This document shows positions 1 through 7,378 of a stretch of DNA of 64,000 bases, piece by piece. The DNA comes from Indolivaga capnocytophagoides DSM 22835. GTDB taxonomy: Bacteria; Bacteroidota; Bacteroidia; Bacteroidales; Dysgonomonadaceae. The position numbers and the translations under genes are program-made. The DNA lies in assembly GCF_000426485.1 (NCBI RefSeq), contig NZ_AUFL01000005.1:186001-250000 (forward strand). The letters run 5' to 3'. A model generated the notes under the pieces. That model was given only the letters and a program-made list of their open reading frames with translations, did not search any database and was not told where the DNA came from. The number at the start of each line of letters is the position of its first letter. Positions within the stretch are counted from its first letter, which is position 1.

Positions 1-296
1 TCCTGCAAATCGGCATCCAGCATGGCGACATAGTCTCCGGTCGATGCTTCCAATCCGGCATAGATAGCTGCTTCTTTTCCAAAATTGCGAGAAAAAGAAA
101 CGTAACGTACACGAGAATCTTTCTTTCTCAGGTCACGTATAACTTGTAGTGTTTTATCCCTTGAACCGTCATTAACAAAGATAAACTCGAATTCTTGTCC
201 GCTCATCCGCTCTGCAACTTTTACCAACTCCTCATAAAGGAACGGCAAAGCCTGCTCTTCGTTATAACACGGAACAATTGTTGATATTTTATCCAT
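1..296 (-). CDS. Family 2 glycosyltransferase, GtrB/DPM1-like (N-terminal part)
   Basis: The gene is cut by the window edge; only about 98 N-terminal residues are present. Reading from the ATG at 296 the protein starts MDKISTIVPCYNEEQAL, continues with a VNDGSRDKT segment and reaches LDADLQ at the edge. These are the nucleotide-sugar and metal-binding features of GT-A family 2 enzymes, and the spacing resembles the dolichyl/undecaprenyl-phosphate glycosyltransferases (DPM1, GtrB, ArnC). Such enzymes load a sugar on a lipid carrier at the inner membrane, but the substrate cannot be read here. Its start overlaps the stop of the preceding gene by 8 bases (ATGGATAA), which implies translational coupling in the same polysaccharide operon. 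Confidence 0.85.
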   Translation of the reverse strand, partial: MDKISTIVPCYNEEQALPFLYEELVKVAERMSGQEFEFIFVNDGSRDKTLQVIRDLRKKDSRVRYVSFSRNFGKEAAIYAGLEASTGDYVAMLDADLQ

Positions 297-1332
297 TTGC
301 CTTAAACTTATTTTTAAGTAAAATAATCGTATTGAAAACGTTTAACAGAAAAGCAAAACGTTGCTTTATCATCCAAATCATCAGCTGCCCCTTCCATCCC
401 AGCCGTTCGGAGGTCATTCGACCTGCCGCATCTCGGGTTTCGGTACAACATATTATTTTTTTCACATTCCGGTATCTTGTTCGGAATGAATTTTGGTTAT
501 TCGAAAAGTACTCCTGATTTACAGAAGTTATTACCCTCAATATACAATCGTTTGCCAGACGTTGGTCTGCTTCTCCGACAAAAATACTATTTTTATTTTT
601 TATGTATAACTCTTTCAGGTTTCTAAGAAAAATAAGTTCCTGATCCCATCGCTGCGGATCATACCGATTCGACAGCGATTCATCATTCACTTCATAATGA
701 TAAAACACATCCTGCACGAATAGCATATTACCGGCAAACAGCATTGAAGATATAGTAAACAAACGGTCTTCGCATCGCCTCAGCCGTGTATCGAACCTTA
801 TCTTGTACTGTTCTATCAGTTCTCTTTTAAAAAGATGAAGCCATAAGACTCCGAGAATAAACATCCCTCCGAATTTTTCGGAACCAATCATCGGTAATAC
901 GACCTCTTTTTCAAAAAGATCCCCATCATAAACCCCTTCAAAGGGAAGCCTGTTAATTATCTCTCCTTTCCGAACGGCATTAAAACGTATTATATCAGGA
1001 TTCTCTGCGGACAAATACTCTGTCAATTTCCCGTAAGTATCCGATTCAATCCAATCGTCCGGATCAATAAAGCTTATATAATCGCCCGTGGCTATCTCTA
1101 GTCCGGCATTACGAGCAGACGATACTCCACTATTCGGTTGATGAATAACCCTGACTCTCTGATCTTGTAAGGCATAATTATCACAAACAGAGGGTGAACT
1201 ATCCGTTGACCCGTCATCAATCAAAATAATTTCCAACTCCTTATATGTCTGATTCAAGATAGAATCGACACACCGGGTCAGAAACTGTTCCATATTGAAA
1301 ACCGGAACTATAACGGAAATACGTTGCTGCAT
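289..1332 (-). CDS. Family 2 glycosyltransferase of a surface polysaccharide locus
   Basis: A 347-residue protein with a GT-A fold at its N terminus: ISVIVPVFN at 5-13, IDDGSTD at 38-44, NSGVSSARN around 67-75 and the metal-binding DPDD at 90-93. This is typical of family 2 transferases that extend capsule, exopolysaccharide or O-antigen repeat units on the cytoplasmic face of the membrane. The C-terminal 150 residues are not recognised as a named domain and probably hold acceptor-binding helices. The gene follows the cytidylyltransferase after 1 base and overlaps the next glycosyltransferase by 8 bases, so it is an inner gene of the operon. Donor and acceptor sugars are unknown. Confidence 0.88.
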   Translation of the reverse strand: MQQRISVIVPVFNMEQFLTRCVDSILNQTYKELEIILIDDGSTDSSPSVCDNYALQDQRVRVIHQPNSGVSSARNAGLEIATGDYISFIDPDDWIESDTYGKLTEYLSAENPDIIRFNAVRKGEIINRLPFEGVYDGDLFEKEVVLPMIGSEKFGGMFILGVLWLHLFKRELIEQYKIRFDTRLRRCEDRLFTISSMLFAGNMLFVQDVFYHYEVNDESLSNRYDPQRWDQELIFLRNLKELYIKNKNSIFVGEADQRLANDCILRVITSVNQEYFSNNQNSFRTRYRNVKKIICCTETRDAAGRMTSERLGWKGQLMIWMIKQRFAFLLNVFNTIILLKNKFKANG

Positions 1333-1333
1333 T

Positions 1334-2020
1334 CTATTTGTTTTTTAGCTGCTTATATATTGCTTCTGCTATAAAAAAATCGTCTACCCAGTCTATATCG
1401 AAAGCAGCAATATCACTGTTTTCGAAAAGATAAGGCTTCTGCCCTATTCTATCGTTCAGATTCTTATAAACGGTTATATCTGCGAGAAAAATTCCGCTAT
1501 CGACCTCAAACAAAGGTTCAATTGTTTGCGTCCGAGGCCATTTCTCTTTCTGCCTGTCGTAATTTACCGCTCCGCTTTTATTCCAGATAAAAGTTCGCAA
1601 TGCCATTACCGACATCAAAGAATCATAATCAGCTCCCGACAAAACCTCTTTATATTTTGATATTGCTTTAGCATACAACTCCGCATCTATAAACGGCGAA
1701 GTTACATGTGTCCATAAAACAGCACCTTCGGTAATTATTTGGGGTACATATTTAACCAGATCATCAGTAGATGCTGACGAAGTCGCCAGATGTTCGGGAC
1801 GCCGATCTATCTGTATTTTAGCGTTTGATAATGATTCTGCAATATGTATCACCTCATCGTCATTAGTCGACAGCACAATTGTATCTATCTCCTTACAAGC
1901 TATAAGCTGATCGAGTTTTATCCTTAATAATCCCCCCTCAATACCTGCAAAAGAACGGGTATTTTTATGCGGAACACGTTCACTTCCTGCACGGCATGGT
2001 AAAAAAGCAGATATTTTCAT
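1334..2020 (-). CDS. Acylneuraminate cytidylyltransferase family protein (CMP-ulosonic acid synthetase)
   Basis: A 228-residue protein of the NeuA/PseF/KdsB-like family. The N terminus carries the CTP-binding motif FLPCRAGSERVPHKN (about residues 6-20, with R10, R15 and K19 as the usual nucleotide-binding residues), followed by STNDDEV. The family activates a 2-keto-3-deoxy acid sugar (sialic, legionaminic, pseudaminic acid or Kdo) to its CMP form for a glycosyltransferase. The exact sugar cannot be told from sequence alone. The length matches the shorter legionaminate/pseudaminate synthetases. It lies just downstream of an aldolase gene, from which it is separated by repeat copy 2037-2121, and no NeuB-type synthase is in the window. 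Confidence 0.85.
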   Translation of the reverse strand: MKISAFLPCRAGSERVPHKNTRSFAGIEGGLLRIKLDQLIACKEIDTIVLSTNDDEVIHIAESLSNAKIQIDRRPEHLATSSASTDDLVKYVPQIITEGAVLWTHVTSPFIDAELYAKAISKYKEVLSGADYDSLMSVMALRTFIWNKSGAVNYDRQKEKWPRTQTIEPLFEVDSGIFLADITVYKNLNDRIGQKPYLFENSDIAAFDIDWVDDFFIAEAIYKQLKNK

Positions 2021-2036
2021 TTTGATTTTCCGTTTA

Positions 2037-2121
2037 CTAAGGTCGCAGACCTATTTGTTTCTTTGGCAAGTAAATAGGCTGAGCTTGTTATAACATTGAA
2101 ATGTATCATTAAATACTTTCA
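2037..2121 (+). repeat. Dispersed palindromic repeat, near full-length copy (A)
   Basis: Palindromic head AAGGTCGCAGACCT at 2039-2052, then CTTTGGCAAGTAAATAG and the tail ATCATTAAATACTTTC. It fills the gap between the aldolase stop (2119) and the cytidylyltransferase start (2020); the head is 19 bases upstream of that start codon. The strand given is that on which the palindrome comes first. Confidence 0.85.
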
Positions 2122-3678
2122 TTTGATTAATAGTCCATAGACCGATATATTCTTAACTCCGTTGTATTTGGTCGCTGTTATGGTTGCGATTTCTTTTTCA
2201 GGGTTTTCATTAACTGCTCTTGCCAACAGATATTCGTTTTCCTGAGTCAGCATTCTTTCATTCTCTCCGATCAATCCATCATAGCCGTCATATCCGGCAA
2301 TATAAATGGTATTTGCCGAAATTTCGAGAGCAGTCTGTAACGCCAGTGCCGTATGCGAATCCTGATAAAGATCGGAAAATGTAACTGATGCCAATTCGAA
2401 ACTTTTATCTTTCAGCTTTTCGGGAATATACGTTCCCATTTTTCTCGGATAAGGAGGCAGCACGCACGATATACATTCGAGATTGAAATCTGCAAACACT
2501 TTTTCTAAACGGTGTCCCTCATTCCCCACTAAACAGAAATACTGAGGTATGTCTATATCATTATAATATCCGGCATTCTTACTGCTTGCATGTATCAGAC
2601 ATACCGAATGGTTGTTTTGCTTTTTAATCAGCTGTTTAACGGCATATGCGGCACTGGCTCCGCTAGGGCCTCCTCCGATAATAACAGCCAGATCGAAATG
2701 TCGCCTTTCGGCATTGAATTGAGGTAACTTAAGGTTGTCGCCTTTCTTGTCCTTCATATTATTCAAAGCCTGTAAGATACTGTTGATCGAATAAAAACGG
2801 CGGGTTACCCAGTCCATCACATCTTTTTGTGGCAATGAATTGAACCCCGAAACCATATAAGGTAAATTCGTTCCCCAGCGATATTTTTCTTTCAGCCGCT
2901 CAAAGTCGGCAACGGTTATACTCAGACTGTTAAAATCAATTTCCAAGCCTTTGTTCGACGACAGATAAGACAATAACAATTCCGTCCGAAGGTTGCCCGC
3001 TCCACGCCCCATCCCGGTGATGGTTGCATCCACAATATCACATCCAGCATCTATCGCAGCCAGAGTATTGGCAAAAGCCAGTTCTATATTATTATGTCCG
3101 TGAAAACCTATCTTGCATTTCAGTACCGATTTAACCGCCTTGGTTATCTGGCTGACTTGTTCGGGCATCATACTTCCAAAAGAATCGACCATTGCAAAGC
3201 TGTCGACAACACCGTTCAATGAGAGCAGACTGTTTATAAAATCCGGGTATTGAGATGTCCACTTCGACATGTACATAACATTAAAACCGACTTCGAAACC
3301 CATATTCCGAATTTCGGCAGCAGTAACTTTTGCCCTACCGAGATTTGAGGGATCAACTGCCATTCGTATAAAGTCGAGCTTTCCTTTACAAGAGCCCAAT
3401 AACCTGTCTAAATCTTCGACCCGAATTTCTTTCTCATTCAAAATAACACCGATCTTTTTAGACGGCATATATTTACGAGCCCTGCTTATGACATAATCTG
3501 GGCAGAAGTTATATTCTCCTTTGTAGTCATTGCTTAACAGCGAACGATAACCGATCTCTATATACTGAACCGGCAACTTCTCCATCGACTCAAAGTAGTT
3601 CTTTGTCAGATTCTCTTCAAAATCCCAATTTGTATAATATCCGCCATCACGGAGCGTACAATCTAATACCTGTATCAT
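2119..3678 (-). CDS. HMGL-family (DRE-TIM) aldolase with C-terminal MptE/Maf-like Rossmann domain
   Basis: A 519-residue protein with two parts. Residues 1-300 are a DRE-TIM metallolyase/aldolase barrel: LDCTLRDGG at 5-13 (catalytic R10, metal ligand D11) and FHGHNN at 192-197 (metal ligands H193 and H195), as in 4-hydroxy-2-oxovalerate aldolase, HMG-CoA lyase and isopropylmalate synthase. Residues 325-519 carry GGGPSG at 335-340 and a later ISANTIYIAGYDG segment, which resembles the MptE/Maf (DUF115) type of Rossmann domain; that second assignment is only moderate. The start overlaps the stop of the upstream transferase (ATGA). Its place between a CMP-ulosonate synthetase and a transferase suggests it makes or modifies an acidic keto-sugar, for example by aldol joining of a pyruvate-like donor. 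That role is inferred. Confidence 0.75.
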   Translation of the reverse strand: MIQVLDCTLRDGGYYTNWDFEENLTKNYFESMEKLPVQYIEIGYRSLLSNDYKGEYNFCPDYVISRARKYMPSKKIGVILNEKEIRVEDLDRLLGSCKGKLDFIRMAVDPSNLGRAKVTAAEIRNMGFEVGFNVMYMSKWTSQYPDFINSLLSLNGVVDSFAMVDSFGSMMPEQVSQITKAVKSVLKCKIGFHGHNNIELAFANTLAAIDAGCDIVDATITGMGRGAGNLRTELLLSYLSSNKGLEIDFNSLSITVADFERLKEKYRWGTNLPYMVSGFNSLPQKDVMDWVTRRFYSINSILQALNNMKDKKGDNLKLPQFNAERRHFDLAVIIGGGPSGASAAYAVKQLIKKQNNHSVCLIHASSKNAGYYNDIDIPQYFCLVGNEGHRLEKVFADFNLECISCVLPPYPRKMGTYIPEKLKDKSFELASVTFSDLYQDSHTALALQTALEISANTIYIAGYDGYDGLIGENERMLTQENEYLLARAVNENPEKEIATITATKYNGVKNISVYGLLIK

Positions 3679-4925
3679 TTCAGTTCGGGATTAAATACAT
3701 ATTTGATCACTTCTTTCATTTCCCTCCTGATTTCACTTTCAGGTTTTGATTTGAAGTAGTTTATCTTGTTTTCCAGCCCTGCCAAGTCATAAAATTTATC
3801 ATCCATTCCATAGAAGTCTTCGTTTTCCGAATCAGACCATCTTAATGAAATTTTACCTAATGCCAAAGACTCATAATATGCTGTTGTATTAACAGCTATG
3901 GTAAAATCGACTAAATCAGATCTTAAAACTTCCTGCACAGAATGTTCCCGCCCTACAAAAAATAGATTATCAGTAATACTTGCGAAGGCTTTATGTTCGG
4001 AATCGACTACAAACGGATGCTTTTTCAGATAAAACAATATCTTATTGCCGTGCTTGCGATTAAATTCCATAAGCAAAGCCAGTAACTTGTCATTGGAAGG
4101 TATATATACCGACCGTCCCAAGAGTACCAGACATTTACTGAATGACTGATCCACATACCCGATCTCTGCATCTTTGTATTTCGAATTTCCAGCCAATATA
4201 AAACGAGACTCGTCAAAACCTTTAGTCTTCAGATAATCTATGGTAGATTGTCCCCAGCACATCAGTTTATCTGCTATCAGATTATCCATATTGATAATAT
4301 CAAACGGAACCATTTGCTTAAAGTCGCAAAAAACACCATGCTGAAGGCTGATTGTTTCCACTTTATGTTTCTTAAAATAAAGCGTCAGCAGACTTTCTTC
4401 TTTATATGCCGAATTAAAGCAGATATATTTTTTGACATTCGGAGGACACAGTACTTTATCGAGGTATTTAACCTGATTAAACAAGTTGGTAAGTATTGCA
4501 ACCAAATAAAGTTTTGTAGTAAACGATTCTTTTACGGAACGGGAGAAAATAATCCGAAAGGCTTTCAGCAAATGACTTATATATGAGATTCCGAAAGGCG
4601 AATATCCAACCTTGTCAAGTGTCTCAAGACACGTCACATCCGAGTCGGGATAAGTTTTACGGACAGACTCCGCCAGATCACCATAATCTTTACGGTTAAT
4701 CAAATAGGTTATTACCGTTGACTTTTCGGTTTGGAGAACTTGTGAAAGGTTAGTAAATTTTACCCCTTCATAAAATCCCTTAAATACATCCCTGCCTGTT
4801 ACGGCATCATCAGTAAACATACATGTGAGATAACCCGGAATAAGACACCCGATATTATACCCCCTGTATGTATAATCGAGCTTAGAAAGCAGGTCTTTGT
4901 AACGGTTATAAAATCTTGTATCCAT
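3675..4925 (-). CDS. Putative GT-B-type glycosyltransferase of the polysaccharide locus
   Basis: A 416-residue protein without a clear named family. It has the SLQHGVF signature (H196 in QHG, residues 195-197) followed by a CWGQSTIDYLK segment and AGNSKY, an order seen in GT-B transferases that build charged surface polymers, such as polysialyl- and poly(glycerolphosphate)-transferase relatives. A late VNTTAYYESLALGK segment fits the nucleotide-sugar-binding half of such folds. No membrane span is obvious. It is the first gene of its unit: a well-formed promoter lies at 4952-4982. Next to a CMP-sugar synthetase, a CMP-ulosonate donor is a reasonable guess, but not shown. Confidence 0.6.
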   Translation of the reverse strand: MDTRFYNRYKDLLSKLDYTYRGYNIGCLIPGYLTCMFTDDAVTGRDVFKGFYEGVKFTNLSQVLQTEKSTVITYLINRKDYGDLAESVRKTYPDSDVTCLETLDKVGYSPFGISYISHLLKAFRIIFSRSVKESFTTKLYLVAILTNLFNQVKYLDKVLCPPNVKKYICFNSAYKEESLLTLYFKKHKVETISLQHGVFCDFKQMVPFDIINMDNLIADKLMCWGQSTIDYLKTKGFDESRFILAGNSKYKDAEIGYVDQSFSKCLVLLGRSVYIPSNDKLLALLMEFNRKHGNKILFYLKKHPFVVDSEHKAFASITDNLFFVGREHSVQEVLRSDLVDFTIAVNTTAYYESLALGKISLRWSDSENEDFYGMDDKFYDLAGLENKINYFKSKPESEIRREMKEVIKYVFNPELK

Positions 4926-4951: not shown

Positions 4952-4982
4952 CAAAGTTAATCATTTAAGGCAATGCCTCAAA
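4952..4982 (-). promoter_or_regulatory. Bacteroidota-type promoter for the polysaccharide operon
   Basis: On the minus strand TTTG (4982-4979) is followed after exactly 19 bases by TAACTTTG (4959-4952), matching the known -33 TTTG and -7 TAnnTTTG consensus. Transcription would start near 4947, about 22 bases before the ATG at 4925. The -33 box overlaps the stop codon of the upstream phosphoesterase gene, so the polysaccharide genes form their own unit. Confidence 0.7.
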
Positions 4983-6240
4983 AAGTTATTTCTACGTTAT
5001 TATCAGCCGGATAAAAATCGAGTTCGATATTTTCGGGCGATAATGGCACAGGCATTCCCATATCCTTTATCAGATGCGCAATCGCTTCCTTCATAGCATC
5101 ATCCACCTTTTCATCACCTTGCAGATGCTGTACAAATATCTGCGACGCCAGATCGGCTAATAAATCTAACGTTTGAGGAGGAAAGCTCATTCCTTTTGCT
5201 CTGATTACCTCCAAAGCCAAAGCTCTGGCACGCGACTGCATTACTTTTTTATTGTCTTCGGCCAGATCGGGCTTACCTTCGATAGCCGTCACGTTTTTTG
5301 TCGATACAGACATTCCGTTTTCGGTCAATTCCACAAAACGGTAAGGATATGCAAATGCCGCCAATGAGCCTGTTTCTATATCATAAATTTTATTTCCTGC
5401 CGGTGATTTGTATTCGGTGATGTCATTTGCATGGAAATGTCCGGTAAATATAGCCTTCATTCCCTGATCAGCTAACAAATCGGCTAAACGGCTCCAATCG
5501 TCCACCAGATAATCTTTAAAGAAATATGACTGCATCATAATATGTTCTACCAATCCATGATGCATCATACCCAGCACCCGTATGTTTTGTTTTCGGGCTT
5601 CAGCCAAAACTTCGGTGATCCACTTTTCAGTTTCGGGTAATATTCTCCCCGATGATATACTATTTCCCTTATAATCCTGATATTTGCAGGCATCTATAGC
5701 GAGCAGCCATGTTTTTTTATCCAGTTCGGCAACATAACTCAATGATGCTGTATCTCGGCTGATTTGTTCCGTATAACCACAATCGGCATATATTTCGGCA
5801 AATTCCTGAGGTGAAATATTTTCTGTCGGCAGGGTTTTATCTCCTTCGTATTTCACCGGGTGAGGAATATTGATATCGTGATTGCCCGGAATAACATAAA
5901 TCCGCACACCTTTATCGATCAGCGGCTGGAGCTTTTTTCTGAAATCTATATGGCTTTGTTTCTCTCCATCTTTAGTTATATCTCCCGGGATCAGCAGAAT
6001 ATCTATGTCGCTTTTCAGATAATCGTCCAATACCTGCTGCAGTACCAATGGAACATCACGAATATCTTTTCCGCTCATATTTACATAATCTTTCACGGCT
6101 TTACCGTCATCCATCAATTGTTCTGACAAATAATGAGGATCACCGATAACACCAAGACGTAAAGATTCGGTACCGGATGCACAAGATTGCAAATGAATCG
6201 AAAAAAACAATATAAAGAAAAACAGTATATACTTCTTCAT
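4978..6240 (-). CDS. Lipoprotein metallophosphoesterase (calcineurin-like)
   Basis: A 420-residue exported protein with a lipobox ending LQSC at C20. The metal-binding motifs of the calcineurin-like superfamily occur in order: GDPHY (D34, H36), PGDITKDG, GNHD, MMHHG and GHFHAND. It should therefore cleave a phosphoester outside the cytoplasm, anchored to a membrane by lipid. The substrate is unknown. The first codon overlaps the stop of the small membrane-protein gene upstream (ATGA), so the two are translated together. The last 100 residues after the catalytic domain are not recognised. Confidence 0.88.
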   Translation of the reverse strand: MKKYILFFFILFFSIHLQSCASGTESLRLGVIGDPHYLSEQLMDDGKAVKDYVNMSGKDIRDVPLVLQQVLDDYLKSDIDILLIPGDITKDGEKQSHIDFRKKLQPLIDKGVRIYVIPGNHDINIPHPVKYEGDKTLPTENISPQEFAEIYADCGYTEQISRDTASLSYVAELDKKTWLLAIDACKYQDYKGNSISSGRILPETEKWITEVLAEARKQNIRVLGMMHHGLVEHIMMQSYFFKDYLVDDWSRLADLLADQGMKAIFTGHFHANDITEYKSPAGNKIYDIETGSLAAFAYPYRFVELTENGMSVSTKNVTAIEGKPDLAEDNKKVMQSRARALALEVIRAKGMSFPPQTLDLLADLASQIFVQHLQGDEKVDDAMKEAIAHLIKDMGMPVPLSPENIELDFYPADNNVEITF

Positions 6241-6802: not shown

Positions 6803-7378
6803 ATGGCAAAATACACAGAAGAACTAGGAAAGAAAATAGCAGACGCAATAGAACAGGATGAATATACATTAGGTGAAATCTGCACGATGTACAGCATCAG
6901 CCGTAAAACATTCTATCAGTGGGCACGGAATCATTCAGATTTCAAGGAAATGATAGATGATGCCCGTGCAGGTCGTGACGAAAGGCTGGCTCAAAAAGCC
7001 CGAAAAATCCTCAAACAAAGATTAGAGCATGGCTATACCGTAACTACCACCCGTTATAAATATGCAGTAGATGAGTACGGTGAAATATATCTGACAGGAA
7101 AAACGGTAACCATGAAAGAATATGCAGCAGACGAAAAGACACTGAAAATGGCAATGGCAAAAGAAGGAGAAATAGAAGAGAAGGTAGAAAACATTCGTGT
7201 ACCGTGGGAAATCATAGTACAGAATCAAGAGGCTGCCGATCAGATTGAATTACTACGTAACCCCGGAACCGAAGAAGAAATAAGAGAAATATCTCTGCAA
7301 ATCCAACAGAAGTATGCAGCGACACGACAAGAATCTGACCCCAATGCTTACGATCCGTCATTGGACAGTCGGATATAA
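6803..7378 (+). CDS. Helix-turn-helix protein resembling phage terminase small subunit
   Basis: A 191-residue soluble protein. Residues 10-45 form a helix-turn-helix of the resolvase/terminase-small type: a segment LGEICTMYSISRKTFYQWAR, then FKEMIDDARAGRDERLAQKA. This layout matches the DNA-recognition subunit of phage packaging terminases. The rest is charged, and residues 90-160 may be helical. There is no large subunit, portal, capsid or integrase near it, so it is either a phage remnant or a domesticated DNA-binding protein. Start ATG at 6803; no clear promoter was identified. The gap to the next gene holds repeated GTTACCTTTT words. Confidence 0.6.
   Translation: MAKYTEELGKKIADAIEQDEYTLGEICTMYSISRKTFYQWARNHSDFKEMIDDARAGRDERLAQKARKILKQRLEHGYTVTTTRYKYAVDEYGEIYLTGKTVTMKEYAADEKTLKMAMAKEGEIEEKVENIRVPWEIIVQNQEAADQIELLRNPGTEEEIREISLQIQQKYAATRQESDPNAYDPSLDSRI

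Follow-up and report, generated by a model that had tools for sequence, protein, structure and literature searches.

A gene cluster of a Dysgonomonas-like bacterium and a possible aldolase-based route to CMP-activated ulosonic acids

Gene content of the cluster

What is encoded in the first kilobases of the 64,000-nucleotide stretch of Indolivaga capnocytophagoides DSM 22835 analyzed here (the window; contig NZ_AUFL01000005.1, positions 186,001 to 250,000)? The minus strand carries a cluster which, read from right to left, encodes a metallophosphoesterase lipoprotein, a protein we call P4, a 519-amino-acid aldolase protein, a 228-amino-acid cytidylyltransferase, a GT2 glycosyltransferase and a GtrB-like GT2 enzyme. 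In our reading, to which we assign a probability of about 0.72, this cluster would constitute a route to a 3-deoxy-2-ulosonic acid activated with cytidine monophosphate (CMP) that depends on neither NeuB nor KdsA. The features are listed below, beginning with the two on which this reading turns; L and G numbers in the text are our handles for loci and genomes.

2119..3678, minus strand: two-domain protein of 519 amino acids; residues 1-312, DRE-TIM HOA-like pyruvate-aldolase barrel; residues 317-519, Maf_flag10/MptE-like domain (PF01973 superfamily)
1334..2020, minus strand: CMP-ulosonate synthetase, a NeuA/PseF-like cytidylyltransferase of 228 amino acids (PF02348, 4.6e-13; PseF, 7.9e-17; CMP-sialate synthetases in the PDB, 9.5e-10)
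3675..4925, minus strand: P4, a probable GT-B-like glycosyltransferase and the candidate CMP-ulosonate transferase of the cassette (weak BFO_1060 match, conserved motifs, recurrence in cassettes)
289..1332, minus strand: GT2 glycosyltransferase (PF00535, 2.2e-39), syntenic in L053, L054 and L034
1..296, minus strand: GtrB-like polyprenyl-phosphate GT2 enzyme, 5' part (PF00535, 6.7e-28)
4978..6240, minus strand: metallophosphoesterase lipoprotein (PF00149, 4.6e-14), the first gene of the syntenic block, kept upstream of P4 in Dysgonomonas

Neighboring genes overlap or are separated by at most 52 base pairs (bp) at four of the five junctions: those for the aldolase protein and P4 overlap by 4 bp, and 1 bp separates the cytidylyltransferase gene from that of the GT2 enzyme. 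The exception is the 98-bp gap between the aldolase and cytidylyltransferase genes. The complete frame of the GtrB-like enzyme, 313 amino acids long, lies in the left flank (L007, 17355-18296). The source genome is Dysgonomonas-like, its closest named relative being D. macrotermitis (81% identical, syntenic), and the same gene arrangement is found in other Dysgonomonas genomes, at the three loci named in the list. Because of this synteny, and because most of the 83 loci described below have the aldolase and the cytidylyltransferase as a pair, the arrangement is not due to chance.

The coordinates and the Pfam and NCBIfam matches bear out the gene order and identities given in a preliminary description of this DNA, namely a DRE-TIM aldolase, a NeuA-like cytidylyltransferase and two GT2 enzymes. 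Its label "aldolase" holds for the barrel, residues 1 to about 312, but passed over the second domain, residues 317-519, and its designation of P4 as a transferase is tentative, drawing on a weak match to the BFO_1060 family of glycosyltransferases (1.4e-8, far under the cut-off) and on association. The synthetase is a member of the CTP_transf_3 family (49.9 bits versus a cut-off of 22.6); with 61.6 versus 205.7 bits it stays under the NCBIfam equivalog cut-off for PseF, of which it is a relative.

The aldolase barrel and its partners

The barrel matches the HMGL-like family PF00682 in Pfam (8.9e-24), and its best NCBIfam match is 4-hydroxy-2-oxovalerate aldolase (5.8e-30), although it misses the equivalog cut-off of that family, TIGR03217, with 94.5 versus 286 bits. 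The model of the 519-amino-acid protein has a predicted local distance difference test (pLDDT) score of 93. Its nearest solved structure, 3dxi, has the same barrel and covers the N-terminal domain of BVU_2661 from Bacteroides vulgatus (51% identity over 303 columns), a structural-genomics entry that bears the description "putative aldolase"; the next structural matches are pyruvate aldolases, DmpG (1nvm) and relatives. Arg10, Asp11, Ser166, His193 and His195 of the barrel align with the pyruvate/metal site of DmpG, and all five are invariant in the 84 aldolase-Maf fusions and in the 28 phage fusions that were aligned. With DmpG and BphI the barrel thus shares the fold and the Arg, Asp and His-X-His of the metal/pyruvate site, together with the GMGxGAGN motif. 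It lacks their acylating dehydrogenase partner, however, and whereas those enzymes belong to operons of aromatic degradation, the barrel described here occurs in glycan loci with CMP-ulosonate synthetases. Searches of the open-access literature for BVU_2661, 3DXI and cd07944 gave nothing relevant and no report of a function.

How general is the pairing of this barrel with a CMP-ulosonate synthetase? Among the best matches, 80 genome contigs encode the full two-domain protein (41-81% identity); most are from Bacteroidota, and others come from Balneolota, Thermodesulfobacteriota and one Candidatus Vogelbacteria genome. The 83 loci compared are best matches, not drawn at random, and two of them, L036 and L081, are one locus; the frequencies hold for proteins close to that of the window, not for the superfamily as a whole. 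The gene after the aldolase encodes a CMP-ulosonate synthetase in 73 of them, at a median gap of 1 bp, and a synthetase is directly next or previous to the aldolase in 75, as compared with 26 of 1324 (2%) for the other genes of the same loci. A HAD-IA phosphatase accompanies them in 49 loci, and on a plasmid of the alphaproteobacterium Leisingera the annotation itself reads aldolase, "KDO cytidylyltransferase" and HAD hydrolase in a row. KdsA is found at none of the 83 loci; NeuB lies within about 10 kb in 16, nearly always at a distance and only once adjacent (L085).

The partner synthetase is of two distinct kinds, either NeuA/PseF-like or KdsB-like above the NCBIfam subfamily cut-off. On the aldolase tree the partner type changes 19 times, and the well-supported (starred) branches alone force at least 10 of these changes. 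What is conserved is the CTP (cytidine triphosphate) activation of an ulosonic acid, not one particular gene, and it is difficult to account for this if the acid is not the product of the aldolase.

The association belongs to the subfamily with the motif RDGGY and not to all HOA-like proteins, since the paralogs with RDGGLM have no CMP-synthetase neighbor. These paralogs, Bacteroidota proteins of about 316 amino acids with RDGGLM in place of RDGGYY, often stand beside a protein of about 100 amino acids, and no CMP synthetase was found near them (L038-L048). For matches outside the subfamily from plasmid and prophage collections (Priestia, Mesorhizobium, Paraburkholderia and Salmonella), the annotation likewise lists no CMP-synthetase neighbor. 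Predicted viral HOA-like aldolases from IMG/VR with the canonical RDG(N/S)H (L166-L183) reside in other clusters, many with a protein of about 600 amino acids and short-chain dehydrogenases/reductases (SDRs), and no CMP synthetase was seen nearby.

A more intimate connection is found on IMG/VR contigs (L134-L148, L150-L163), classed as viral by that collection's own prediction, where mostly a single gene encodes the aldolase barrel fused to a KdsB-type synthetase. The fusion proteins have about 550-590 amino acids, with the barrel N-terminal and the synthetase C-terminal (in L134, HMGL-like followed by CTP_transf_3), and the predicted phage genomes that encode them carry other sugar genes as well; in L149 the aldolase adjoins a NeuA-type synthetase. 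The fusions have no Maf-like domain, which is thus dispensable for the first two steps of the scheme proposed below.

Genomes that carry the cassette, yet lack a synthase dependent on phosphoenolpyruvate (PEP), bear on the same question. The source genome has three CTP_transf_3 proteins: a KdsB, with KdsA encoded elsewhere; a NeuA fused to KdsC, with NeuB next to it; and the cassette synthetase, for which the aldolase is the only partner forming C-C bonds. The sole NeuB of the genome is on another contig (C2). It and the NeuA-KdsC-type fusion lie at 9276-11334 of L008, and the phosphatase half of the fusion is similar to KDN-9-phosphate phosphatase, though at 168 bits it stays under the cut-off of 180. 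No NeuB is found in six genomes with the cassette (G133, G172, G008, G348, G589 and G596). One of these, G133, is a complete Dysgonomonas genome with two CTP_transf_3 proteins, one of them in the cassette. G008, which is 100% complete, and G596 lack KdsA as well, and the cassette's synthetase is their sole CTP_transf_3 protein. Two sister Bacteroidales genomes, G008 (locus L037) and G606 (locus L118), keep WaaA in the absence of KdsA; G008 also lacks KdsB, its only CTP_transf_3 protein being linked to the aldolase.

A proposed aldol route and its alternatives

In all pathways known to us, biosynthetic ulosonic acids (sialic, pseudaminic and legionaminic acid, and Kdo, 3-deoxy-D-manno-octulosonic acid) are made by PEP-dependent synthases. 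Most likely, the barrel would instead join pyruvate with an aldehyde; the resulting 3-deoxy-2-ulosonic acid, which may carry a phosphate, would be activated with CTP by the neighboring enzyme. As a metal-dependent pyruvate aldolase, the barrel would add the pyruvate enolate to the aldehyde, yielding a 4-hydroxy-2-keto acid, that is, a 3-deoxy-ulosonate. The aldehyde is probably an aldose or aldose phosphate of central metabolism, since the cluster has no other sugar-making enzyme. Were it phosphorylated, a HAD phosphatase would remove the phosphate, as KdsC does for Kdo; the gene is absent from the cluster in the window and common in relatives. The PseF/NeuA-like enzyme would, by its family, couple the acid to CMP, and finally, in the least certain step, P4 and/or the Maf/CstII-fold domain might transfer the acid to a cell-surface glycan built jointly with the two GT2 enzymes.

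The preliminary description had proposed just such an alternative aldol route to a CMP-activated acid, and the linkage, the exchange of synthetases, the fusions and the genomes without a PEP-dependent synthase argue in its favor. Its remark that no NeuB was in view extends to the whole window and to 18 kb on its left, where neither a neuB nor a kdsA homolog was found; no pseI was found in the locus either. The same description held that a known different role for this aldolase subfamily would speak against the route; none was found in the open-access literature, the only structure being the putative aldolase 3dxi. Across genomes, where it had suggested a search for the triplet, the aldolase-cytidylyltransferase pair recurs. 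Its suggestion that the pathway is little described also stands, in that we found no description of an aldolase/CMP-ulosonate route in the open-access literature, and the papers on Escherichia coli and Vibrio capsules that were checked make no mention of aldolases. The support for the pathway is genomic in kind and comes from gene content, linkage, domains, metal-site residues, the switching of partners, fusions, and the absences of NeuB and KdsA.

The route would share a NeuA/PseF-like CMP synthetase and a surface-glycan context with the NeuB, PseI and LegI pathways, but in place of their PEP-dependent synthase the cluster has an enzyme of the pyruvate-aldolase type. It likewise resembles KdsA-KdsC-KdsB as a set of synthase, HAD phosphatase and CMP synthetase, with a KdsB-type partner in many cassettes. 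However, the aldolase is not a PEP-dependent KdsA, the phosphatase is of HAD subclass IA rather than a KdsC, and the cassette usually coexists with KdsA. The components are of known kinds; their combination would be new for CMP-ulosonate biosynthesis. Genome annotation relies on NeuB and KdsA to call ulosonic acid synthesis in a bacterium. If our reading is true, surveys for these two enzymes overlook the synthesis of CMP-activated acid sugars by many Bacteroidota, by other bacteria and by phages; a common unassigned aldolase of solved structure would gain a role, and acid sugars could be prepared from pyruvate with simple enzymes.

Several observations weigh against this reading. The residue corresponding to the catalytic His21 of DmpG is Tyr14 in the barrel, invariant in all 84 aldolase-Maf and all 28 phage fusions, so that the acid-base chemistry differs from that of the characterized aldolases; at this position the Bacteroidota paralogs without a CMP-synthetase neighbor mostly have Leu, and sequences of canonical type have His. 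A PfkB gene resembling 2-keto-3-deoxygluconate (KDG) kinase, for which the proposed scheme has no place, stands in lieu of the phosphatase gene in seven loci (L065, L036/L081, L100, L103, L114 and L123). It never occurs together with HAD (7 and 49 loci, respectively), for which we calculate a chance of about 0.001 if the loci were independent, although they share ancestry and L036/L081 stand for a single one. In five of the 83 loci (L074, L075, L105, L124 and L127) and in L188 an HpcH/HpaI aldolase gene directly follows the barrel gene, and with this second aldolase of the pyruvate type, either of the two could make the acid there. The absences in draft and metagenome genomes may be assembly gaps, which makes a role of the cassette in feeding lipid A in G008 and G606 tentative. 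Finally, KdsA is found above its cut-off in 40 of the 48 carriers tested, and hence what the cassette makes is in most cases not the Kdo of lipid A, or not that alone.

This last point bears directly on an alternative in which Kdo, or an isomer close to it, is the product of the cassette, formed from pyruvate and D-arabinose or its 5-phosphate by an aldolase-based analog of KdsA-KdsC-KdsB. The row of aldolase, HAD and KdsB is a functional parallel to that set, and G008, with WaaA in the absence of KdsA, KdsB and NeuB, as well as G606, with WaaA in the absence of KdsA, would fit; but plain Kdo would be redundant in the source genome, which has KdsA and KdsB, as it would be in most carriers, and the partner is frequently NeuA/PseF-like rather than KdsB-like. 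We consider this rather unlikely as a general explanation. Equally doubtful is a combined scenario in which a class II pyruvate aldolase underlies a widespread second ulosonate route that, in the lineage of G008 and G606, replaced KdsA and KdsB to feed WaaA with Kdo or a substitute; if true, it would mean that the PEP-dependent Kdo pathway is replaceable. The acid could also come from a NeuB-type synthase elsewhere, with the aldolase protein modifying or recycling the sugar and the cytidylyltransferase serving that nonulosonic acid. The source genome does have one NeuB, and the 16 loci with NeuB within about 10 kb would be in keeping with this, yet the NeuB of the source genome adjoins its own NeuA-KdsC fusion, six genomes with the cassette are without NeuB, and 67 of the 83 loci have none nearby, making such an origin improbable.

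The HpcH/HpaI loci suggest yet another possibility, namely that the acid comes from an aldolase of this type, or from one encoded elsewhere, and that the 519-amino-acid protein is mainly a transferase whose barrel supplies a side-group precursor or is regulatory. The Maf/CstII fold of the C-terminal domain and the location of HpcH, after the barrel gene and before that of the synthetase, would suit this; however, 78 of the 83 loci have no HpcH, the phage proteins without the Maf-like domain retain the barrel, fused straight to KdsB, and the metal-site and DRE residues are invariant, HpcH loci included. We therefore regard it as unlikely. The loci concerned mostly have divergent cytidylyltransferases and sometimes an SDR; the idea that HpcH/HpaI substitutes there for a decayed barrel was rejected, as the catalytic residues of the barrel are conserved. 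It is very improbable, lastly, that the barrel is a condensing DRE-TIM enzyme of the acyl-CoA (Claisen) type and the synthetase activates some other 2-keto acid: the superfamily does include isopropylmalate, citramalate and homocitrate synthases, but these are weaker matches of the barrel, and pyruvate aldolases are its best matches by profile, structure and fold.

Candidate transferases and a neighboring gene

The fold of residues 317-519 is predicted with high confidence (pLDDT 95), and the modeled domain resembles the Maf flagellin glycosyltransferase 5mu5 (Z 15.9, 189 of 203 residues) as well as archaeal MptE and the GT42 sialyltransferases CstI and CstII (Z about 10). PF01973 is matched by 50 of 68 family members, at best with 1.2e-6, the window copy itself giving no PF01973 score, and hhalign relates the domain to DUF115-type neighbors with a probability of 97%. 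By profile and predicted fold, the domain thus belongs to the Maf/MptE-like (PF01973) superfamily. As described in PMC11339370, the Maf_flag10 domain is pfam01973 and is similar to Cst-II, and the sugars transferred by Maf enzymes are nonulosonic acids. Unlike Maf, CstI and CstII, the domain described here is fused behind an aldolase, and its identity to them is just 10-14%; a transferase activity is putative.

P4 has neither a meaningful Pfam match nor a sequence match in the PDB; its QHG, WG, HP and E motifs are invariant or nearly so. It is rare, being present in 2 of the 296 genomes sampled from the phylum, and occurs inside aldolase cassettes of other genera (L113, L092, L108, L036; weakly in the Leisingera locus). 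L188, which was found through P4 alone, has the order aldolase-HpcH-SDR-NeuA-HAD-P4. By this association, P4 may be the transferase that acts on the product of the cassette.

Farther along the window, on the plus strand at 6803-7378, and with no obvious phage genes alongside by eye, stands an isolated gene for a 191-amino-acid protein that has a helix-turn-helix-like start and, again by eye, resembles the small subunit of a phage terminase.

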